The notes below the pieces were generated by a model. That model had not been told where the DNA came from. It did no database searches and saw only the letters and a program-made list of their open reading frames with translations. The position numbers and the translations under genes were made by a program. A stretch of DNA of 64,000 nt from Gordius sp. MW1 (lineage: Eukaryota > Nematomorpha > Gordioida > Gordea > Gordiidae): contig OZ038533.1 of assembly GCA_964036665.1 (NCBI GenBank), positions 5,788,413-5,852,412 of the forward strand, in the 5' to 3' direction. Every line of letters starts with the position of its first letter. Position 1 is the stretch's first letter. Shown in pieces: positions 1,801-61,740 of the stretch.

Positions 1801-2379
1801 TTTGTATTATTTTTTTAAAATGTCAAAGATTCTTGTCAATATCCCCGTTCCATTTTGTGCTTTGACAATTCATTTGAACAAACTTATTATACCATGTGAA
1901 ATTTTCCATATTGTTTCAACTACATCACTTTGTTTTATTTATGAATAAATTTTATTTATTTTATGCCCTAAACATGAGGGTCTGAGACATACCAGTGTGA
2001 TGTTATTAGAAAAAATACACAAAGTAGTAGCGGAATTTTAAGTTTGTCCAACGTTTATGAGGGAAAATTTTTTCAATTGCGTTTGACCCATAGGTATCCA
2101 GGTTTTGGATTAGGAGGGAGCGAAAATGTTTTAAGTTCAATTAGGGGGGGGGGGCAAAACATAATTTTTTTTTAATTGTTAAGGGTTTTTGAAGTAAAAA
2201 TTTTTTTTGTCCCCAGCAAGGCAAAAAAGCTAGCTACGCCACTGGATATGTAGATGACTGGATATTAGTAATTGGTGTAAATTAAATACCCTTAAAAATG
2301 TAAATAAATAATACAGTCAATTTTTTTAGTCGTGTATGTATTTTTTGTATACCATTTAATAAAGATATCTAGTATTAGG
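1801..2379. other. Intergenic DNA with a decayed MITE scar
   Basis: No gene is seen. At about 2089-2244 a G-run segment ends in AGCTAGCTACGCCACTGG, the usual right end of the hAT-type MITEs of this window. The left end is too worn to define the borders. Confidence 0.4.
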
Positions 2380-2527
2380 TAGATCCATTCTAAAATAAAT
2401 ATCATTTACACAATAAATAAAAATTAAAAATGTAAAAACTGTGATGAAAGTTTGTTTATAATATAGCGCCATCTATATTTTGTATAATATTAATTCATTG
2501 ACGTTTGTTCAAATTTATAAACTACTG
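2380..2527 (+). repeat. Core fragment of P-like MITE (subfamily B)
   Basis: The segment, with a TATTTACACAA-like start, the AAAAATGTAAAAACTGTGATGAA motif area and 'atagcgccatct', recurs nearly unchanged at 53380-53515. In reverse it recurs at 29540-29690. It is the internal core of the subfamily B element. Both ends are missing here, and a complete subfamily A copy sits 30 bp further on. Confidence 0.65.
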
Positions 2528-2557
2528 AGTAGTGATGTTGATTTGCTCCAGTGAGCA

Positions 2558-3001
2558 CATGGACTACATAGACTGCCCATGTCATATGTTCCATATGGCA
2601 AATTGAGTGTGAAATTTGCCTCCATTTTGATGAACACTACCGTCCTATATAACTTAATGGCGTTTTGCGTTGTGCCGTTTTGTTCGAACAGGAGAGGAAA
2701 AGAAAAAAGGTTTTGATTCCATGAATAAATAAGATATTACAAAATATATGATATTTTTAAAAAATAAGATCAGTAAAACATTTCAGGCCTGAATGAAAGG
2801 AACGCCTAAAATTTTTAAAAATATCATACATTTTGTAATATCTTACTTATTTATGGAATCAAAACCATTTTTCTTTACCTCTCCTGTTCGAACAAAACGG
2901 CACAGCGCAAAACGCCATTATGTTAGGACGGTAGTGTTCATCAAAATGGCGGAAAAAACACACAAATTTTATACCGTGAAGAGCAGTCTATGTAGTCTAT
3001 G
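2558..3001. mobile_element. P-type MITE with THAP-coding inverted repeats, copy 1
   Basis: A 444-bp element flanked by a perfect 8-bp target duplication, AGTGAGCA at 2550-2557 and 3002-3009. The ends are near-perfect inverted repeats starting CATGGACTACATAGACTGC and ending GCAGTCTATGTAGTCTATG. The arms are about 200 bp long, so the whole element can fold back. Inside each arm, on the inward strand, is an open start MAFCVVPFCSNRRGKEK (2655-2706 in the left arm; MAFCAVPFCSNRRGKEK in the right arm). This matches the N-terminus of a THAP zinc finger (M-x-x-C-x4-C, then basic residues). Both reading frames stop at TGA after about 19 codons. THAP plus 8-bp duplications points to the P-element superfamily (inference). 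There is no transposase. Confidence 0.85.
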
Positions 3002-3009
3002 AGTGAGCA

Positions 3010-4583
3010 TTGCTCACTGTGAGCTCGGCCCCCTCACAAGCACTGTGTATCCTACTCTACTCATGAGGCTGTTGATGTATCAGATGCAAATGGAGAGGCG
3101 AAGGGGTAGTAGCAAAAAGTAACTCATGTATAGAGCTGTGTGCCTGAGCAGCATTATAAGTTAACTAACAGATTTAATATGAGCAAATGCTATGTGAGCA
3201 AGCAGTTTCTCTAAACTGCTCATAGCATCTCATATTATAATGTGATAATAAAAGCCTGCGATGAAATAAAGCCTGTTTTGTTTTAGTACATTGTGTTGTT
3301 CGACAATAATTATGGCTTTTTGAATAGGCGTAAGTGTGATTTCCTCATGGGGGGGGGGGGGGTTATAAAATTTTTAAGATAAATCTTTTTTGTAACTATT
3401 TTTTTTGGATCTATATGTTTTGTTTCCTAAAAGTTTAAAGTGATATTCGCGTAAAAATAATAAATTATAAAAAGTAAAATTCCAACAAATATTTTTTATA
3501 TATATATACAATGTAAAAATTATTTAAATTGAAAATCATGGGAGGGGTTCCAACCGAAAAACCACCCCCTCCCTACGCCAATGGCTATTTGTTATGAATC
3601 TATATTTTTTTAAGGCGATTTTTTTTGCAATTTTCTTTATATATGGCTAAAATATGTTTAACGATATTACAACTTATTTTTTATACATGCCAAAAATTTA
3701 TTTAATTATAAATTATTGAATTTTCTGTCTCACCCAGATGGTAATTTTGTTGACAATTTTAATATGGTTTAACTTTATATTTATCGTTTTTAAGAACAGA
3801 TATCAATGTTATAATTTTATTAATGGTGTGAACTAATTTTTTGTTCGATTTTCAATATATATATCTAAAAAAATTTTCAAAATTTATTTTTTATAAATGG
3901 CGAAATTATGTTTTAATGCATAAATATTTTTTTTGACATTTTTAATAGACTTAATGTTTCTAAATTTATATTTAATAATATTTTTAGTCCAGGTCACAAT
4001 GCAAAGTTTTATAAAAGATGGGAAATTTCGCTTTATAGAATATTCTATATCTATATAGATGGCTAAAATTTGTTTAATGAATTCAAAATTTACGCCTTTA
4101 TACATGCCAAAAATATGTTTTATTGTTTAAATATAAATTTTTGAATATTCTGTCTCACCCAAATGTTAATAAATTTTTTGACATTTTTAATATGGTTTTT
4201 TAAGCCAGGTTTTTTTGGGTTAAGCGAATAATAAAATGAGGAGAGAGGAGGACTTTTTAAAATAAGAATAACAACGTTTCATGCTATGAGAGATAGGGAA
4301 GAGGGGATAGGCGATATGTCACATCATAAGACATAATTAATTAACACATTCGTTTCGTTGAGCCAAATGGATGAGCAACTTGCTATCAGCAATTGCTCGT
4401 ACAAAACTACTTTTATTTAAAGTTGTTAACAAACTAATATTCCTACTGCTTGAGCTTGTATTTGCCGTTACAACTTAACCTCTTAAGCATTTTACCCCTT
4501 GATGACAAAGCTTATGCGTCCGAGCACATATGCTAGCTATGTGTTTACGTCCAAGTCGGAGCTTTAGAGCAACTTAACTACTA
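3010..4583. repeat. AT-rich region with degenerate direct repeats
   Basis: No gene is seen. A G-run MITE scar lies at about 3348-3590. Between 3640 and 4210 a unit recurs two to three times: a 'ggctaaaat..tgtttaa' segment near 3643 and 4059, a 'tacatgccaaaaat' segment near 3684 and 4102, and a 'ctgtctcaccca' segment followed by 'tttttaatatggttt' near 3725 and 4150. The spacing is about 415-425 bp. A third, poorer copy lies near 3895-3960. Confidence 0.55.
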
Positions 4584-28170: not shown

Positions 28171-29395
28171 AGTTTGAGCACTGCACGGGCCGCCCCCGAA
28201 GTCCGACCCGTCCCGGCTCAAAAATAATAAAATAATCAGGCCTCGGACTCGGGTCGGGCCTAGTATGACAAAGCCGCGGAAGTAAAACTCTAGGCTAGAC
28301 TTAATCAATTATGGTTTTATAAACATGCATTTAACAGATACAGTTGACATTTTATCTTTTAAATATAAATTCCAGCCTGCTGCCTGGTTCATTCGGCCTG
28401 CAACTGTCGTCGTGAATTTAATTTTTGGGTTGGCCAGGCGGGCACCATTACAAGATTCGGGCAATTAGCGCTTAATGCGTTTTTAATATACTGTGATATT
28501 TTGTTTAGGTCTATTAGTTTATCACTTTTTTTGATTCTATAATGTTAATTAATCGCAGTTCTCATCCATAAAAAAATCGAGTTAAATCAAAAATTGTTAA
28601 AATATAACAAAATTATTGCAAAAAATTCAAAAAAATCATCATTTCGAGCCGGGCTGTTCGGGTAACCTTAATGAATTGGGCATGGCCGGGCTAACTTCTA
28701 GATGGGTTCGGGCGGGCCTGGAACAGCAATCCAAAATAATCAGACAAATATGACCTATGATCAAGATATTTCTCTGACTAGAAAAGAACGTTAAAGGCGC
28801 GTAGCCAAGATTTTAAGGGGGGGGGGGGGGGGGTTCAAATTTTTTTAAATAATCTCTGCCTTTAAATTAGATTATCTGGCGGGCATCATATAAGATTCGG
28901 GCCTAAAAAGATTTATATATAGTGTATTATATTGTTTTTGTGTATTATTTTGTCACCTTTTTTTAACGTTTAATATTAATCGTGTTTTTTATCTTGAAAA
29001 GTATTAAATTTATAGTTTTAAAAAATAAAATACTGCTAAAAAATTTAAAAAATCAATATTTCGAGTCGGACAGTTCGGAAAGCTTTGATAACTCCGGGAA
29101 GGGTATAGGGCGCGGGCGATTAATATAGTTATAAAATAGCACCATTCGGTTAAGAAATCTTAACAATTTAACCTCTAAAAAGATGAATTTTTTAAATTAT
29201 GAAGCGTCATAAAAAACAGTCATTATCAATGTTTGTAATTTTTGCCCATAAATTTTCTATCTAGATTTTGACATAAGGCAAGAACATCCACGATGAATTG
29301 TTAATAAAACCAATTTATTTCAACGTACTAATTAATAAGTTTTAGATCTTTTTACTATAGAAAATTTCTTTCAGTAATTGTGGTTTTGAGGAGAC
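28171..29395. other. GC-rich transposon debris
   Basis: 28185-28265 ('gcactgcacgggccgcccc', 'cggactcgggtcgggcc'), 28380-28450, 28650-28720 and 29060-29120 repeat 'cgggcc', 'gttcggg' and 'gggcggg' motifs. They resemble the element at 51796-52924, probably a decayed, segmentally duplicated relative. The left end of a hAT-type MITE (GGCGCGTAGCCAAG then a G-run) is at 28797-28833. No gene is seen. Confidence 0.45.
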
Positions 29396-30072
29396 CATAG
29401 ACTAGATAGACTGCTCATTATGCCATATGTTGCATATGGTTAAATGTGTGTCAAATTTTCCTCCATTTTGGAGAAAGCAACTGGTGTATTTTAACCATGT
29501 AATTTTGCCCTAAAACAGTCAATTTACCTTCTCAACTAGTTTATAAATTAAAACGAACGTTAATAAATTAATATTATACAAGATATTGATGGCGCTATAT
29601 TTTTAAACAAACTTTAATCGCAGTTTTTACATTTTTAATTTTTATGTATTGTGTAAATGATATTTATTTTAAAATGCTGTTTTTGATATCTATCCAATTC
29701 AATGTTTTTTTAATTTACCTTTTTAAGATTATTTAATTAAATTACTAATTTCTGTATGACCACTACCATATAGTCAATAATTTTCAATCCGTTTATATAA
29801 ATGTCATTGTATAAATACGGTGGATTTGGATTGATAGCGTAGGTAGAGGGAAATGGAACGCAATATTTCGGACACATCTTAAGAAAAAAAAACCCTGAAG
29901 ATGGACCATAAGTGTCCGAAATATTGCGTTCCATTTCCCTCTACCTACGCTATATCAGTCCTAATCCACCGTATTTATACAATGACATTTATAGATCACT
30001 ACCATGTTCACATCAAAATGGTGGAAAAATGGGTACACAATGTGCGTTGGTGAGCAGTCTTTTTAATCTATG
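29396..30072. mobile_element. P-like MITE carrying a ZP-exon-like insert
   Basis: A 677-bp element. The ends CATAGACTAGATAGACTGC and the inverse of CATAGATTAAAAAGACTGC are flanked by GAGGAGAC (29388-29395) and AAGGAGAC (30073-30080), an 8-bp duplication with one mismatch. The left half is subfamily B core. The right half is a fold-back: about 79-bp arms at 29801-29880 and 29910-29988. On the minus strand, 29766-29833 reads NPNPPYLYNDIYINGLK then IIDYM. That is about 87% identical over 68 nt to exon 8 of the ZP gene at 46057-46137 (NPNPPILYNDIYINGLK then IFDYM). Most differing codons are synonymous. So this copy either captured an exon of a ZP paralogue, or the exon derives from such an element. 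Confidence 0.8.
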
Positions 30073-30179
30073 AAGGAGACGAAGGTGTGGTTAGGCAATG
30101 GTTTTAATAACATGTTGTAAGCTGCTAGAGTGTCATGGACATTCTTGGAAGGACAGGTCTTTATAGTTTAAGACATATC

Positions 30180-37560: not shown

Positions 37561-40500
37561 GAAAATTTTTAATCTTCAATTGCAGCAATTTTTAAATTAA
37601 AATCTAACAGTTTTGTTGACCCATTTTGTATAGAGTTTAGAAATTAATATTTATTTATATTTATAATGATAGGTTTCAATTACCCAAATAATTCCTTCCA
37701 ATTTAAAAGGACCTTTCAAAAGGTGTAAAAATTTGTAAAAATATTATAAAACCAGCTAAATTTTTATTAAGCTTTCATAGAATGTGGCAGTTTTTGTATT
37801 TTTCTGTAGGAATTAAACAATTCAAATATTCAATATTAAAAAGCGAAATACATTTTAGTCCCAGACGTATTCGTATAATTTTAGTACCATTCTTAAGATA
37901 TCCTATACTCTTATATAAAATTCTAATTTCAATTTTTTTTATTATCTTCCATAAACTAATAATAAAAATGCTAAAAAATTATCAACTAACTCAAAACTTA
38001 TTTTGCGTTTTTAACATGTCTTTATGTAGGCCAATTGTTAGAACGTTGGCGCGTGCAAACTAAAAAAGGTGTTGAATTTCACAATTCTAAAACTGATAAA
38101 AATGTCTTTTTAACTTTGCTCTTTCTAACTCGCTCTTCTGCCCCCTATTCCCTCCTATTTCCTTTTTCGATTTTATAGTTTTTATTTTATTAAATTGTTA
38201 TAAATTAGACTTCATATTATTTTGAAATATAGCTGAGCTGAAAATTTTTAAGGCTCTTGAAGAGGTAATTTAACAATTTTGAAAACTAAATCCTATATGA
38301 TTAAGGAAAGGAGTGAGTTAAATCGACTATGTCTATAATAAAAAGACTAAAAATAACGTGGGATATATAATTACATTGTCGCTGCCTACTTATCGAGGAA
38401 AACAAGGGAAAAGGTTTGGATCGACAATTTAAGGAAATTAGTCTTTTAATTATCTCCTAGATCTGGAGCCTGCGAGAGAAATCAGGTTGAGAGGTTAAAA
38501 GATAAGAGACTCTAGAGAATCCATTGAAATTCGAAACAGAGCTAGGGTGTATGAATTAGAAATTTTTAAAAAACAATGTTTTTCTACCATAAAAGCGTTT
38601 TGTCGATTCACATTTGTCAAGTAGGTTATCAAAATATAAGTGCGATTTTGTATTCCTAAAATCCTACTCTATAATTTATATTAATGAATAATTTAGGTCA
38701 AATACATAAATAACATCCCTTGTAATTTAAAGATTTGAGTATAAAACATTTGCTGTATTCTAGTTTGCGATGCAAAACAGCTTGTTATTCGGGTTCCTGA
38801 TAAAACCTAGATATTAACTAGGGGTCGGGTCAAGTTAGGGTTGAAATTGAGATTTACATAAAATTTAATAATCCACTATGCAAACAACAATAAGGACGAA
38901 AGAGTAAACTATTTTTTAATTTTCGTCGAGTTATTTAGAAAATTATTAACGAGACGGGGGGGGGGGAGATAATTACCCTTCTCCCCTATAGCCCAGCCCA
39001 TGGTTCAGGTCTCTAGTTGCTATTTCTAGATATAAGGGTTTGCGAATGTCAAAGGTTTAGTAGCTAAAGAGCTTAATTTATTATTAAATTTGCCCAAACC
39101 CTGCTGCAAATTACCCCCTTTTCCGCATTTTTCGCAGTTACCAATGTAATCCAGCCCATTTAGCAACAATTTTATAAATCAACCACGCTTTAAATAAAAA
39201 TATATAATATTAATTTATTAGTTTAAACATTAAATTTATTAATATGTATGTTTAATATCATAATAACTTTGCTTTTTTATTATTAAAAGCTTAGATATTT
39301 AGGCAATCCGTGTTTTTTCCAACTTTAAACTAAAAGGGTTTTCAAAAGATAATAATTTAATGGAGCGGGCTATAGAAAATAATTTGCAGCATTACGCCGC
39401 CCTTTATTAAATTTGCCGACTATTTTTGAAATAAAATTTTGGCCGTTATTGACGCTGAAATATGCAATCAAAATGGAATAACAGTTTATGTCATAATACA
39501 AAGTTTTTAAAGATGTTTAATAAGTGAAAAGGAAGCACACCATTTCAAGACTAATATATAAAGTCTTAATTTTGTGCCCGCTGGTCAGGTTATACAAAAA
39601 ACGCTTCTGGTTATTGTGATAAAAATCCTAGATTAAAAAAGTTCATTCTATTTAATTATTAACACAAGAGTTGTTAAGTTTTATTGTTTTTCCTAGAATA
39701 TAGCAAAATAACCAAGGTGAGTGTAACCTTAATATATAATTTTGTGAAAGAACAATTATAATTACAGTCAAAACCGTTTTAAACCGATATTTTATATAAT
39801 TATCTGGTTGATTTAAGGACTCGAAAATGTTTGTGAATATCCGATGTTGTACTATTAAGCGATTGTCAATAAACGATGCTTTTGTTAAAATTATCGTTAA
39901 AAAAACAAAATGGCGGTTAACTTCGCGATTAAAAGATTTTCGCGATGTCCGATTTGCGATTAAGAAGTTTCGACTGTATTGGTAAGATTTTTCACTCAAA
40001 AAATCATCCTCTATATATTTGACTCAAGAAAGGATAAGCGAAATTAACAAAGTTTCATATCTTAAGTCATAAAATAGTATTTTTTTAATTGCGAATTAAA
40101 CTCTGACATTTTTCCATAGTCAAATAGTTTGCGAACTCTTTATAAATCGATATAATAGCAATTGGAAAAAGGTTACTTGAAATTTCTATAAAATCAAATA
40201 ATAGTGACAAGAAAGAGAGTACCAGAGCATTTTTAATAACTGCCCCTTTAAGCAATATTAAGGGGGGAGTCAAATTAAATCAATTTAAAAGTCTGCCTTG
40301 TAAAAAAACTACAATTCAAATAATTTCAGGGTCAAAATTTTTAAAATAATTAATTTTTCAAATGGAAATTTTCTCGCGCCCTATGAAGGTTGAAATATCA
40401 TTTCTGGCCTAAATTTTTTGAAATTAAATGCAAGTCAATTGGGTTTAAAATAATTATATATGACACAGATACTGGTAATGTTTTTGAGTGTACAATGTCA

Positions 40501-40677
40501 ACGCAAATCGGACCCATTCTTGCCCAAAGAAGATCCTTGGCCTATGGACCACAATTCACACGTTTTCATTGAAGGTATTTACTTTGATTTTATTCATTAA
40601 CACATCACTAAAATGGTCACTTTAAAACCGCTAATTCTTATAAAAATCATAAAATTAAATTAATCACTATATTTGAT
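37561..40677. other. AT-rich intergenic DNA
   Basis: No exon or complete repeat is recognised. A G-run scar sits at about 38955-39000. The missing first exon(s) of the ZP gene, with its signal peptide, may lie in or left of this region. Confidence 0.35.
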
Positions 40678-40685
40678 AAGACATT

Positions 40686-41013
40686 CATGGGCGTACGCAG
40701 GGGGTGGAGGGCAGCTGCCCCCCCCCCCTTAATTTGAAAAAATAAATTTCAATACAAAAACCCTTAGAAATTAAAAAAAAAAGTTTTGCCCCTCCCCCCT
40801 AATTAGCCAGAGGGGGGCAGCCGGACTCCCTGCCCCCCCCGGGAGTTGCTTTTTTTTGCTCTCAGGAAAATTTTTGGATAGTCGAGACTTTTTTTTTTGC
40901 TCTCAGGAAAATTTTTAGAATAGTCGAGACCTTTTTTTTTTGCTGTCAGGGAAAATTTTTTTGTTAAAAATAATCTGCCCCCCCCCCTAATTCAAAACCT
41001 GGGTACGCCCATG
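40686..41013. mobile_element. hAT-type MITE with perfect target duplication
   Basis: The ends are CATGGGCGTACGCAGG and CCTGGGTACGCCCATG. A perfect 8-bp duplication AAGACATT lies at 40678-40685 and 41014-41021. Inside are three tandem copies of a roughly 42-bp unit (TTTGCTCTCAGGAAAATTTT, then a 'gatagtcgaga' segment and a T-run). The inverse of this unit is found in the element at 6715-7050. The perfect duplication suggests a fairly recent insertion. Confidence 0.9.
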
Positions 41014-41615
41014 AAGACATTTGTTAAATATTAAAGTGAGAGCTAGGATCTATTTATAGGGGTTTAATAAATTAATTTCAAGCAAAGTTTTGCTGAATTT
41101 TATCGTTTTCCTATAATTGAGGTATAAATATAATTTTTGTCCAAACTATTGGGTACAAAGAGTAAAGAAAGTGAACAATTCGTGAATTAATTTGAACTAT
41201 CATTAACCGATTATTCTTAAAAAATATACCAAAACTTTAGAAATGGGAACCACAATTTGGCTAAAATCTTTTTCTTAGTCATTCCCACTTATAATCCCTC
41301 ATACTTACATTAATTTAAGAAAGATGAATATCTGGGCGCCTCTATTTGAATTAGAGTCTTTATAATTTAGTGAGGGGCAAAATACGCCCTTTTTAACTTT
41401 GTAATTAATTTGTATTGGAAAATATAATTGGATTTAAGGTGGAACCGTAGCTAAGTCATTTGAAAGCATCAATTAATTAAAACAAATTATGATATTACCA
41501 ATTTGTATAGGAAAATAAATGGATTTTAAGGAGGCTGGCGTGGGGTACTACTGCCTTTCCCAACTAAGTCAATCTATTAGAGTCATCAGTTAATTAAAAT
41601 AATTTATGTCATGGC

Positions 41616-42075
41616 CATAGACTACATAGACTGCCCATGTTATATGTTCCATATGGCAAATTGTGTGTGAAATTTGCCTCCATTTTGAATAACACTACCG
41701 TCCTATATCACATAATGGCGTTTTGCGCTGTACCGTTTTGTTCGAACAGGAGAGGTAAAGAAAAAATTTTTTGATACCATAAATAAGTAAGATATTACAA
41801 AATATATGATATTTTTAAAAATTTATTATTGACACATTTCATAAAAATTAAAAATGTAAAAACTGTAATGATGTTAAAATTTTTTAAAAATATAATATAT
41901 TTTGTAATATCTTACTTATTTATGGAATCAAAACCAGTTTTCTTTACCTCTCCTGTTCGAACAAAACGGCACAGCGCAAAACGCCATTATGTGGTATAGG
42001 ACGGTAGTGTTATTCAAAATGGCGGAAAAAAACACACACATTTTATACCGTGATGAGCAGTCTATGTAGTCTATG
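41616..42075. mobile_element. P-type MITE with THAP-coding inverted repeats, copy 2
   Basis: A 460-bp sister of the element at 2558-3001, with a perfect 8-bp duplication GTCATGGC (41608-41615 and 42076-42083). The ends are CATAGACTACATAGACTGC and its inverse. Each arm again begins an inward THAP-like frame, MAFCAVPFCSNRRGKEK, that stops after about 19 codons. It sits just upstream of the first visible exon of the ZP gene, probably in that gene's first intron or promoter. Confidence 0.88.
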
Positions 42076-42362
42076 GTCATGGCCTGATGATTAAATAATA
42101 TTTTTTGAATTATATGTTATTTAAAAATGACCTAGCTTTGATTCAATATAATAATAATTTATTTAAGTGTGGAAGAGTAGGCAAAAGTTTTATAGCAAAG
42201 GGTTTATAAAAACCTACCAACTAGCTTTTTATAAAAATGATTATATAACCTTTTGAGGTCAATTTATTTATTTTTGAAAGAAATCTGCCATCCAAAATAA
42301 GTATAGCATGCTTAATTCCCTTCACTTTAATATATTATGGTAATATTCTTTTTTTTTGCCAG

Positions 42363-45300
42363 ACGTTCAACTGAGTTGTGATAGTCAGTTTTTCAATGTG
42401 ATAGTCAAATTTACGAACCCATTTTACGGGGTCATATATACCAAGGATTACTTCTTTACAACCGCTGACAAATGCAGGATCGAGGGCCAGGGCAGAGATA
42501 CCGTCAATTACCGTATCTCCTTTAATAACTGCGGCTCAAAGAAGAGACGAGATGTAAATAACTTATCACAAAGAACATATTTTAAAAGAAAGTTGGTTTT
42601 ACTAATTCTTAATAATGGTTTGAGCATTCTGAGTTTATTTAACATATTTTAATTCTAGTTTTAAATAATAATTTAGAAAACTTAAATTAATGAATTTTGT
42701 TTATACAACAAATTGGAATTACCTGAAGCATAAATATTTGATAAAAACTGAGGGCAAAATTTATAAAACTAGCATATTTTTTGCAAGATTCATATATACT
42801 GACTTTCCTCTAATAAATTTATGGATATGTGATTTTAATCAAATGTTTGTTTTTATAGTTTAAAGCCCAAACTTACCACGAAAATATAATAGTGGTAAAA
42901 ATCGAAAAATCATGGCCCATCATTACAACCGAGGATCGCGGATTTCGTTTAATGTGTTGGCCGGTGAAAAAAGTTCCCGACAAATCATCTCAAAAATATG
43001 CCACCATTGATGTGCCGTAATTATAATCATTTCACACTGATGTCAAAATTGCATGTCAATTTTTAATATTAATTTAACAAAAGCAATTTTTTATAAAATT
43101 ATACTTATTTTAGTTTACAAAATAGATCGTTCATTATATTATATATCTTTGTTCACAGTCTCGTTTAATGAGTATAAAAGTTAATAAATTTAATTACGAT
43201 TTTAGTATGATTTTGAGGGTTAAAATTAAGATTTTAGACAAAAATTTAGGAATTCACTAATTCATAATCCTATAATTGAAATCTTTCATAATAAATTTGA
43301 TTTAATTTCCTAGTATGATTCCGGTTGAAAGTCAAAGGGTACCTAAAAAGTCTTTAACAATTCCTGACTGTTCAATGAAGGTTATTAAAGGACTAGATGT
43401 TAGGTCTGGACCTTCCGATAGAATGATAATCGGACAAACGGGCAGTGTGGTTGTTTCTCTCCCAGATGAAAGTAAGAATTTCATTTTTTTTAAATTTATT
43501 AAATAAAATTATTTTTTTCTCTACTTAAATGTTTATTTAATGGTATACAAAGAATTACATACACGACTAAAAAAATATAAAAACGCGCTATAACTAAACG
43601 GATGGCATTGATCCGTGTATGGAAATCGTGTTGGATTTAACGATTTCCATTGTGATCCTATTTAAAATAACCTTCTATATATAAATATCAAGGAAAATTT
43701 GACCTATTCCTCTCTCAATGTTCGGCCCATGATGGTAAAGATATGCACGATGTCCAACTTATTGACGAAAATGGGTATGCTAAATATACAATTAATAATA
43801 GAAAAATTTCATAATTTTGACGTTTTTTTTATTACTAGTTACAAAATACATATTTTGTGAAATTGAATGAAATAAATTAAAAAAGGTTTGTAAATATATG
43901 GATAACATTCAGGTATTGCAAATGAATTATATTAACAAATAGTAATGTTGATTTCTGTCTTGTAAAAAAGATTGACGATTATTATGGGATAACAAAGAAA
44001 TTATTTTTCCTATTTTTTAGAAAAAATGTTAGGCTTAAGGACCAAAGGGTGTTGGTGTAGTTGTCCCAATGGGACAAAAAAATATGTTTGCAATTTTTAT
44101 TCAATTCTCGTAATTTAATGTAAGTTTCTATTTGACATATTGACTTTTGAAATATTTTAGATAAATAAATAAAATTCAAATGAATAAATTTTTAAAGAAA
44201 TTTTTATATTTATGTATATTTTAAATTTGACAGATGTCCTACGATGCCCAAAATGGTTCGAGAAGTCAGGCACGTTAGAATACAAGAAACGAGTTATTAT
44301 TTTTTCCCCTTCAAAGTTTTCAAATTTCCCGACACTACAAATGTCTACTTCCGCTGCAATGTTACCGTGTGTTTTAAATCCTGTAGTCAGGTAATTTTAT
44401 CACGAAACATTGATCATTACAACTTTATTTAACTAAATTTTAAATATATGAGTAATTAAGTTTGATCCATTAGTAATACCATAATATGCATTTAGAAAAT
44501 ATATTATTTTAAATTTTTGCAATTTTAATAACTTTGGCAAGGCTTTAGACTATATAATTGAAATTTATACAAATAAATATGGTGAATTAATTATAGTTTT
44601 TCAATCGAAGCATATTCTTCAGAAGAGCAAATCAATAAAGTCATGAGTATAGCTATAATTAAGGGGGGGGGGAGAAATTTAGGTAGAGGCAAAATTTTCA
44701 AATTATTAAGTATAATTCATTTAAATATATGTAAAAACGTGCAAGAGAGGGTGGTAGGTTGGCCCTTCTTGCCACTCTAAGGAAACCCGTGATTTGTTAC
44801 TTTTTGCATTTATATGAGGCATATTATTCACTTTTTCGTACAATTATTTTATAGATCTGTCTCTACAAAATTTAATTAACGATTTAGTTGCAATGCGGTA
44901 GAAATTTATGGGATTATGGCAACTACAATACGGCTCCTCAGATCGAAAAATCTTTGTATTTCAGGAAAAAGGGTCAGCAATTATTAGATCGCCAGCATAA
45001 CAGAGTTATAGGAAAACGAGAAATTACCTATTACCCTAACATAACCCATTACACCGCTAAAAGATTGCCAGCATACAGACAAGGCTTGAAATCGTATGTA
45101 ATGGGAAATCTGCAATTAACAGATGACACATTGGTAGCTAATGAAGAGGACGGCACCAAAATGAGTAATAATTTTTTTTAATAATTTTGCGCTTTAGTTT
45201 ATAAATCATAATTGTGATCGTTGATATACTAATCTAATATATAATGCAAGAATCATATTGTATTTGTTTATGAGATATTAATCTTACAGAGTTTGGGATG

Positions 45301-47096
45301 AAAATTTCTTTTTAACTCTAGAAAAACGAGTACATTTTTAAATTAAACTTGGTTTTGATAAAGGCAATATTCTTTGTTTTGGTTAAGTACATATCCAGTT
45401 TCTTTTAAATTATTAAAAATAAAACCCTTCATATATTTTTAATGAACAATAAATTTAAAAATCTATAAAAATCAAAAAATTTATAATGTTATTAAACAGC
45501 GCTTTACCATTCATTTCCATTTTAAATACATTAAGCCATCGTATATCCTGAAAATTTTGCCGAAGAACTTAAAGCTTCGTTTGACCGCGAAGGCACGCCA
45601 TTGGTTGCATATCAACCAACCACATTTCTTGACTCCTCCGTATCAACCAATGACAACAAAGACACATCAAAATCATCCACGAGGAGTGCAACCCTAAAAT
45701 TCATTCCCCCATCTGACTCCTTTTTGAGATGGGACGAGCAATTCGATACATCCTACTACGGCGGACAGAAAAGTATTAAATAAATATTTTTTAAGGCGAG
45801 TGAAGCCATAAACCTCAAATTGGCTTTTAAACACTCAGTGGGTTTGTTAAAAATAGTGACCCTAATGGACTCCTTCCTTAGATAGCTGTAACTTGGTTAT
45901 TTTAAAAGATTGATTTTCAAACTTTATACAATATTTTAAGCTTGATACGTAAGTTGATGTTATTGTATAAAATTTAATTCATTTTTAATTTTCGAGACTT
46001 CATCTTCTCCCTTTTTTATTTTTATTATATTTTCCCCTGATGATAGACTTTTATAGCCAGAAATATTGCGAATCCAAATCCACCAATTTTATACAATGAC
46101 ATTTACATAAACGGATTGAAAATTTTTGATTACATGCGTAAGTTGATATACAATAATTTTAACGCTTAATTTAGTAATTATAATTTTAAACCAATAATTT
46201 GAACAACGCCCCCGTCCAAATCTTTCCTATAATAAGACTGTGGTCTGAGAACTTTACTTGACCAACAGAATGTTCAAAGCAGAATTTAGGTGTGAAATTA
46301 TAGTTTGAATTACAACGCCTTTGTGGGTACTTCCAGAAATTTCGACCAAGTTTAGTATTTAAAATAATTAAAGGGTGGTGTGGTAAAACAAATTATTTAT
46401 ATCATAAAAACTGAGGATATGAGTATTAGGGACCATCATCCTTTACCCCTCTCCAAAATACCATACGTTTTGTCTTTTTATATTAACCATAATAAATATA
46501 TAAGGTTTAATGTTATGACAAAACTATTTGTATTTGTAATAACAGTAAATGTGATTTGACTGCGGTTGTATACGTTAGGTACGAGTCAGCTGATAGCATT
46601 AAGTCGGAGCGAAATAGCGCGTTGCAAAAATGTTTTCGCCTACGCCATGGCCATCTTGGCCTTTGGGCTATGTGTAGTTATAGGCGTGTGCCTGGGCATT
46701 AGACAATTGTGCAAGCGAAGAAAAGGGCCTAATTCGAGTTATTCGTCATCAGCTGATCGTAGCTCGGAAATTTACGGCAAATCACGAAACGATGGAGCCC
46801 AAATGCTATGGAAATATTGGCACCGATCCAATTACCCACCCTCTTCCATGAACAGCTGTATCACTGGAACTGGATCAAGTCGTCTAAATCCTAATATCTT
46901 TCCGAAAAGCACGATTGACAAAATTTCATCGGATAAGTCTCTGCGCTACGAAAATACTTTAAGCGACCATTTGCAATCTGTCGAGGAATCATCTGGGTCA
47001 AAAGCGTCCAACATTTCTACAATCTCCTACACACCCCCACTCCCCTCAGTTATAAAAACTAGAAAATGTACCCAAAAATTTTTAATCCTAAAATGA
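42363..47096 (+). CDS. ZP-domain transmembrane protein, nine exons, 5' end missing
   Basis: Exons: 42363-42553, 42859-43016, 43314-43471, 43693-43774, 44234-44390, 44888-45164, 45536-45772, 46057-46137, 46579-47096. All junctions are GT-AG and all phases agree, giving about 618 residues. Exons 1-5 form a zona pellucida domain, the extracellular polymerisation module of apical-matrix and cuticle proteins. Landmarks are DVQLSCDSQFFNVIVKF, FYGVIYTKDYF, FNNCGSKKRR, GFRLMCWPV, IPDCSMKV, LFLSQCSAHDGKDMHDVQ, LIDENGCP, FKFPDTTNVYFRC and the cysteine cluster VCFKSCSQLQCG. A linker with dibasic sites (exons 6-8) follows. One TM helix (about residues 466-488, starting NVFAYAMAIL) leads to RQLCKRRK and a Ser-rich cytosolic tail of about 130 residues. 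The first exon starts in mid-codon, so the signal peptide lies upstream and was not found. Exon 8 has a close relative inside the MITE at 29396-30072. Confidence 0.92.
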
Positions 47097-53308: not shown

Positions 53309-53649
53309 CATAGATTAGTCAGACTGCTCATCAACGGACAAAATGTGTACCCTTTTTTCCACCATTTTAAAGCTTCTAAAATAAATATCATTTACACAAT
53401 ACATAAAAATTAAAAATGTAAAAACTGTGATGAAAGTCTGTTTGATAATATAGCGCCATCTACATATTGTATAATATTAATTAATTGACGTTCGTTAAAA
53501 TTTATAAACTAGTGAGGAAGGTAAATTGACTGTTATACCACAAAATGACATGGTTGAAATACACCAGTTGTTGTCTTCAAAATGGAGGAAAATTTGACAC
53601 ACAATTTACAATATGGAACCTATAGCATGAGCAGTCTATGTAGTCTATG
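53309..53649. mobile_element. P-like MITE subfamily B inside the hAT transposase
   Basis: 341 bp. The left end is CATAGATTAGTCAGACTGC, the right end GCAGTCTATGTAGTCTATG. The flanks AATACAAA and GATACAGG match at 5 of 8 positions, consistent with an old duplication. The hAT protein reads into it as KPIFLKSINT and resumes after it as DTGSNAHNG, so the insertion point is clear. An inward ATG frame in the right arm, MSFCGITVNLPSS, is the position equivalent of the THAP start in subfamily A. Confidence 0.8.
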
Positions 53650-60359: not shown

Positions 60360-61740
60360 GTAGTTCTTATTTTTGAAAAATTTCCCTAACTTTTTTGACA
60401 ACAATATTAAGAAGCTATTAAACCTAATACATTGCAAATAAAGCAAAAGGAAAATTTCTTCCAATTTGTATATTTTGTAAAGACGTTAAAATGTTTTATA
60501 AAATTTTCGAAACCCGTTTCCACCCTCGCATTTTATCAATCCTAAACTACCATTATTGGAAACTAATTTTATAAATTATAATGGATTGATAGTACATAAA
60601 TACATACGTTAGAATATTTTTACACTTTTCAGGATATACTATATATTAATAACATTAGCTAATGACAATTTAGACATAAATTAGCTATTTTAAGTTTAAC
60701 AAATTTGTAGAATACTATATAATTATCCAAAAAAGAAAAAGTTTTTAAAATCATTAATTTAAATGATTAAAGATGTATAACACCCTAAGTAAATTAAATT
60801 AATTGTATAATTCGTTGTTATATTGAAATTGTATAAAAAACAAACCCTTTAATGCATTGTATAACAATGAGCAGAGTATGAGATGGAGGAATGATGATGT
60901 GCTTTGAGTTGTACACATAATGATGATAACAGGATTTAAATAATACCTATTAGCAAAATAAGCAATTTAAATAAAGTTACATCATAAAAATAAGAGATTA
61001 TTTTTGTTTATTCTAACATTACTTTAAGTTCTTACATAGCAAAGAAAATGTCAGCAAAGTTTAAAGATCCACAATCATAAATTTTGCTAGAATAATTGCA
61101 TAAATGTTTTCCAATTTGATGTAAATGCATTGAAATAACAATTTGCAGAATCTATTAATAATAAATTTAATCTAAAAAATTTACCATAAACACAATAAAG
61201 TTCCATTTGCCAAAATAATTGTTCATGTAATAAAAAAGCCTAAGATCAAGTGGGTTCTTTAATCTAAATAATTAATAATTCATTTTTATTACTTCGTGAA
61301 AGATATCCCCTTCATATGGATCAACACCCAATTCATATAATTTTATACCTTCTTTTACTTTAATTGATATAATAATACCACAAGCCACACTTACCATTTT
61401 CCCATCTATTATATGGACTTAAAATGCTTATGCCGTCAAAAAAGTTTAAAAAATCAGTAAAGAGATATGCTACTAATCGTATTATAACTCCATATACTGC
61501 TAACGAAAGTGTATAATTCATATTTTGCACTTTCTAACGTCCTGAATGTATGCAAACACTAAAGAGCACTGCTGTCCATATTTTAGAATCCAAAGAACAG
61601 GCGAAATGCACCCCGGGCGAAAGGTCAACACGGTACATTAAAACATCTGTATATTATCTCGATTTGTAAACATATAATATATATTATATTAATGAGGATA
61701 TTAATTTAACGTATTTAATTTCAAGAAGACAATATAGAAA
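60360..61740. other. AT-rich intergenic DNA
   Basis: No gene, exon-like segment or transposon end recognised. Confidence 0.35.

Follow-up and report, generated by a model that had tools for sequence, protein, structure and literature searches.

How did a stretch of a MITE and an exon of a ZP-domain gene, some distance apart in one window (the whole 64,000-nt stretch of Gordius sp. MW1 DNA that we analyzed), come to share a sequence that reads as protein? The resemblance itself is real. Positions 29766-29833 (minus strand) and 46070-46137 are identical at 59/68 positions with no gaps, and in 20 64-kb sequences drawn from a dinucleotide model (one strand) the 68-mer scored at best 35-38/68 without gaps, which confirms the match described in the first-pass annotation; its statement that four of the six differing codons in this 68-bp pair are synonymous also stands on recount. 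Two origins had been proposed on this basis, namely, that the MITE captured an exon of an expressed ZP paralog or that the host exon was recruited from a transposon. The MITE and its contents are arranged as follows.

29396-30072, no strand: P-type-looking MITE copy, with terminal inverted repeats at 29396-29417 and 30051-30072, interrupted by a fragment of a Penelope-like retroelement (PLE)
29768-29996 (approximate), minus strand: nested 5'-truncated PLE fragment, placed by the match of its 3' end to the copy L079 and by its target duplication

The flanks of the MITE copy, GAGGAGAC and AAGGAGAC, match at 7/8 positions. Family members are about 445 bp in size, and the 29 fetched relatives measure 438-468 bp, have ends near CATAGACTAGATAGACTGCTC and, by hand count, carry an exact 8-bp flanking repeat in 12 cases and a 7/8 repeat in 6 more. 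When the genome was searched with 29388-30080 as the query (40 of 2631 first-look candidates scored), the matches of the 39 scored copies besides that of the window were confined to query 4-385 and 601-693, and query 386-600 found no match in any of these 39. The 68-bp segment, whose presence in most copies of the MITE had been suggested as a test, is thus absent from all 39, and rather than a component of the MITE it belongs to a second element bounded by its own target duplication (CACTACCAT, CACTACC(AT), at 29761-29769 and 29997-30005). The middle of the window copy, approximately 29768-29996, is this second element. The constant 3' end of the nested element lies at 29768-29875 (minus strand) and an inverted arm at 29893-29993, and the two match the 3' end of L079 at 99% over 108 nt and 95% over 101 nt.

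These observations bear directly on the hypothesis of a Pack-MITE-like capture, in which the MITE would have picked up an exon from an expressed ZP paralog. The coding-like differences between the two copies, with synonymous changes in 4/6 codons, speak for such a capture, but the segment is foreign to the MITE family, it is a PLE end with its own duplication inside the MITE, and nine other ZP-like loci match query 1-62 alone, which is just the ZP-C part. We therefore assign this hypothesis a negligible probability. Classification of the locus as a Pack-MITE or transduplicated MITE was likewise rejected: the segment is lacking in 39/39 other scored copies and has a separate duplication, so that no host exon is carried as a component of the MITE.

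Relatives of the interrupted MITE occur elsewhere in the window. A fold-back MITE at 41616-42078, bounded by two copies of GTCATGGC, is its kin (83% over the first 75 nt), and the arms of that MITE contain, by eye, a peptide start ..MAFCAVPFCSNRRGK.. that we take to be a THAP-like motif. Positions 53309-53649 and 2261-3001 hold more pieces of the same family.

The second element is a Penelope-like retroelement, as indicated by a GIY-YIG domain in its ORF, tandem units sharing pLTRs, an inverted shorter copy plus tail, and short target duplications of variable length. Long copies (L070, L079, and L081) carry RT/GIY-YIG coding sequence upstream of the common 3' end; in L079, the ORF spans 790-2880 and the tail 3537-3665. 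GIY-YIG scores exceed the Pfam cut-off of 22.6 bits in L079 (28.7), L080 (23.4), and L081 (28.4). Pfam RVT_1 reaches 27 bits on a piece of L070, below its cut-off of 29.6, and is not among the Pfam matches of the L079, L080, and L081 ORFs, so that the RT label rests on this weak match, on weak PDB sequence matches to reverse transcriptases (best E 0.0028), and on motifs read by eye, including a catalytic YVDD.

The family is abundant and its copies are structurally consistent with one another. A 30-nt part of the 3' end has 265 genomic matches at no more than three mismatches, and the reversed-pattern control has 0. A genome search with the nested element (40/482 candidates scored, identity 97-100%) recovered copies in which one end, the 3' end, is constant and the other, the 5' end, is variable. 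An inverted second arm, starting 25-37 nt inside the constant end, is present in 20 of the 38 distinct loci L001-L038 (L039 duplicates the window locus; L006, which has a short outward piece only, was not counted as two-armed). Exact flanking repeats of at least 8 bp (8-15 bp) surround 17/20 two-armed loci, compared with 8/380 mismatched pairs. The tandem PLE at L080 has a period of 2957 bp, with successive units identical at 300/300 nt, and a genome search with an RT piece returned 143 matches, some of them in tandem at the same spacing. We had also considered the segment as a terminal inverted repeat of a second MITE; this reading was dropped because variable 5' ends, a one-sided tail, and variable duplications do not fit it, and it is further undone by the RT/GIY-YIG coding sequence upstream.

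Other features of the family can be noted here. Tandem arrays with a spacing of approximately 2957 bp occupy G000 C8:28243892-28278101 and C5:442516-461795, with two oppositely oriented halves. The window contains a third PLE tail fragment at 60511-60651 (plus strand), which is of an L080-like family and matches the start of the ORF at 72% over 47 residues with one internal stop. The end of the L079 ORF (2733-2821) is repeated in decayed form at 3066-3150, about 330 bp downstream in the 3' region, and L081 has a similar decayed repeat.

Many PLEs carry a hammerhead ribozyme in the pLTR, and membership without one is possible. No Rfam hammerhead was found in the window, in 20 of 68 loci, at 3500-3700 of L079, or at 45900-46200 of the window; the Rfam microRNA-family matches among the 20 loci are long hairpins below their gathering scores. 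By eye, a CTGANG-ATG..GAAA core like that of PLE hammerheads can be seen at window 46038-46064 and at the equivalent position of other PLE copies, and one stem pair there is A-U or G-C depending on which of the two subfamilies a copy belongs to. In the copy within the ZP gene, ATA stands in place of the PLE start codon.

Why, then, does the end of this retroelement look like coding sequence? The reading frame of L080 starts MVAGRPKYLNPFPPSHFINPKLPLL.. and aligns to the tail peptide ..KYRVPFPSTYAINPNPPILYNDIYINGLKILDYI with 49% identity over 35 columns (E 1.7e-6, tblastn without composition correction), and the peptide NPNPPxLYNDIYINGLKIxDYM common to the MITE segment and the ZP exon is the N-terminus of the PLE ORF. 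Known relatives offer a rationale. As far as the consulted portion of its description goes, reverse transcription of Poseidon of Anolis begins inside the template ORF, each of the two target strands is cleaved and extended, and the start of the ORF coincides with stem II of a hammerhead (PMC11167929). The corresponding portion for Adineta Penelope describes a pLTR with a 31-bp tail that carries the first 12 to 22 codons and an inverted pLTR that is the shorter one (PMC3846280). By analogy with this literature, reverse transcription would start a short way inside the template ORF, and copies would as a result end in the first codons of the polyprotein, here approximately 40 of them.

This accounts for the coding look of the differences between the two copies and means that the synonymous differences need no ZP paralog. 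The earlier reading that the copies diverged under protein constraint does have a foundation, in that the segment is coding sequence from the N-terminal end of the PLE ORF, but the constraint is that of the PLE. A ZP paralog behind the resemblance was not confirmed: the segment is a repeat with 265 matches for its 30-nt part, and what had been taken for a ZP exon captured by the MITE is another transposon nested inside the MITE. More generally, since the 3' end of a PLE codes for the beginning of a retroelement protein, annotators may mistake such ends for host exons.

The other member of the matching pair lies in an intron of the ZP gene, with the following features.

40460-47096, plus strand: gene for a ZP-domain membrane protein, modeled by eye from open frames and splice consensus
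40460-40574, 42363-42553, 42859-43016, 43314-43471, 43693-43774, plus strand: ZP exons 1-5
44234-44390, 44942-45164, 45536-45772, [46057-46137], 46579-47096, plus strand: ZP exons 6-10, the bracketed one being the candidate
45948-45958, plus strand: upstream target-site duplication CGTAAGTTGAT, 11 bp
45959-46136, plus strand: PLE fragment, inserted sense-wise in ZP intron 45772/46579 and defined by homology to other copies
46057-46137, plus strand: candidate cassette exon of 81 nt (80 nt of PLE plus 1 nt of the duplication), phase 1-1, open
46137-46147, plus strand: downstream target-site duplication CGTAAGTTGAT, holding a GTAAGT donor with GT at 46138

The candidate is the ninth of ten exons in the present model and was exon 8 of the first-pass annotation. 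Pfam CUT_N (27.3 bits, cut-off 27) and Zona_pellucida (25 bits, cut-off 24.6) were detected in the exons scanned. The intronic PLE fragment starts with approximately 15 nt of the inverted arm, with an inverted 17-nt match at its 5' end, and from about 45973 on, other PLE copies are homologous to the intronic stretch and to the exon alike. A genome search with the exon DNA (40/357 candidates scored) gave, among the matches listed, 29 loci besides the gene itself (L010-L038), all PLE copies by eye. It is very probable that the match arose because one PLE family inserted twice, independently: one copy would have landed in the MITE (29768-29996) and another, sense-wise, in the ZP intron (45959-46136).

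Given a peptide common to the PLE and the ZP gene, transfer in the opposite sense could be imagined, with an ancestral PLE capturing an exon from the ZP gene. Against this, the same N-terminus occurs at 49% identity in L080, a divergent tandem family, the ZP copy is within a few per cent of a single young PLE subfamily, and it includes noncoding PLE sequence upstream of the exon as well as a target duplication, so that we find such a capture highly improbable. The transfer was from transposon to host by way of a Penelope-like element. The second of the two proposed origins, in which the host recruited its exon from a transposon, is supported in its source and direction, with two amendments: that source is a Penelope-like retroelement rather than the MITE, and the exon is a candidate.

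A further suggestion was that hairpin RNA from the nested fragment regulates the ZP gene. The fold-back containing the segment exists as described, its arms 29834-29875/29912-29953 (100%) and 29796-29836/29953-29993 (95%) being nearly continuous, and it is very stable (MFE -134 kcal/mol, z -21.7). However, exon 8 and the nested element share no exact match longer than 18 nt, and fold-backs are common in this PLE family, with a second arm in 20/38 distinct loci. Silencing of the ZP gene finds no support in the sequence, and we judge a regulatory hairpin to be very unlikely.

The question that remains is what the intronic insertion does in the ZP gene. We hypothesize that the PLE copy would bring an AG as 3' splice site and that the duplicated target would bring GTAAGT as 5' splice site, and that a 26-nt deletion, found in no other copy, would turn the enclosed 81 nt into an in-frame cassette; the candidate exon would then optionally add 27 aa to the protein, placed between its ZP-C part and its membrane span. 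The candidate (80/81 nt) and its 3' splice site do lie in the inserted element, and its 5' splice site lies in the duplication. The AG ahead of 46057 is within the PLE, and its motif is present in 15/36 sampled copies. In 14 of these 15 acceptor-bearing copies the equivalent exon measures 107 nt and in the remaining one 104 nt; every one of the 15 has a stop in the phase-1 frame, and in none is the length divisible by 3. It follows that the private deletion, that is, the lack of 26 nt that other copies have between 46070 and 46071, makes the exon work. The exact deletion junction occurs once in the genome. With two mismatches there are five matches (the control gave one, on the reverse strand), none of them a PLE tail copy with the deletion: four have no tail match and one has only a 17-nt match.

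The rival view is that the "exon" is a fortuitous open stretch of an intronic PLE copy that is not spliced into ZP mRNA. Three observations favor it. The gene is open with and without the candidate exon (639 vs 612 aa). A GTRAGT occurs within 16 nt in 1/210 exact tail matches, where 0.98 is expected by chance at the rate of the window itself. Finally, the numbers of differences from the subfamily majority are about equal in the intronic part (3 plus 1 length difference) and in the exon (5, 2 of them nonsynonymous). Specifically, the exon differs from the majority of the 15 copies synonymously at 46067, 46085, and 46106 and nonsynonymously at 46125 and 46136, and the intronic part of the insertion differs at 46029, 46045, and 46047 and by one length difference; columns 45968-45977 also differ and were left out because they lie at the edge of the element. 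The exon bases at 46067 and 46106 occur in 0/15 copies, and that at 46067 is usual in the other subfamily. From approximately 46071 on, the frame of the exon is the PLE's own coding frame, so we did not use these differences as evidence of selection. Against a fortuitous stretch, acceptor, donor, phase, and frame all fit, the frame is opened by a private deletion where all 15 copies with the same acceptor have a stop and none has a length divisible by 3, and a GTRAG lies within approximately 40 nt downstream in 0/36 sampled copies. On balance, we lean modestly toward the fortuitous stretch. Inclusion of the candidate exon in some ZP transcripts, as predicted from its splice signals and frame, is a reasonable prospect, if short of an even chance; that an animal ZP-domain gene acquired a new in-frame coding exon from a PLE, by re-use of the retroelement's own polyprotein frame, is a proposal we hold a little more tentatively still.

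Nested transposons and intronic PLE copies are ordinary, and a claimed animal Pack-MITE is hereby removed; what replaces it is a well-defined case of possible exon birth that lends itself to testing. If spliced, the exon would have been made by a retroelement insertion, the element contributing one splice site and the duplicated target the other. The insertion would have made an exon almost ready for use, one 26-nt deletion setting the frame, and PLE tails, which end in coding sequence, would be natural exon donors. A coding exon born of a PLE, with its donor taken from the target duplication, would add a fresh case of exonization; no PLE-derived coding exon was found among the open-licence titles and abstracts listed or in the part of PMC12910113 that was consulted.

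The window MITE presumably belongs with P-type MITEs, which it resembles in its CATAGACT.. terminal repeats and in the 8-bp duplications of many copies of its family, but here the MITE is merely the landing site of a PLE. The PLE itself shares with Penelope/Poseidon-clade elements, as far as the consulted portions of two descriptions extend, a GIY-YIG ORF, tandem units, and a pLTR ending inside the ORF start (PMC3846280; PMC11167929), together with a shorter inverted copy at the other end, short target duplications, and an ORF start at a CTGANG-ATG core. It differs from those elements, on the same partial view, in having no Rfam-recognized hammerhead and in that its copies are mostly short. 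According to the portion consulted for Adineta, the one-sided tail is 31 bp there and approximately 25-37 nt here, and the coding tail comprises 12-22 codons there and approximately 40 here (PMC3846280). Transduplication into Turmoil-1 of C. elegans, in the part of its description consulted, likewise involves coding sequence common to a transposon arm and a host gene; in that case, however, host exons moved into the transposon, the opposite direction to that found here (PMC2572040). Another parallel is with exonized transposable elements, which, in the excerpts consulted, similarly consist of intronic transposon sequence with splice signals and an open frame; the ZP candidate is distinguished from them in that its frame is mostly the retroelement's own coding frame and its putative donor comes from the target duplication.
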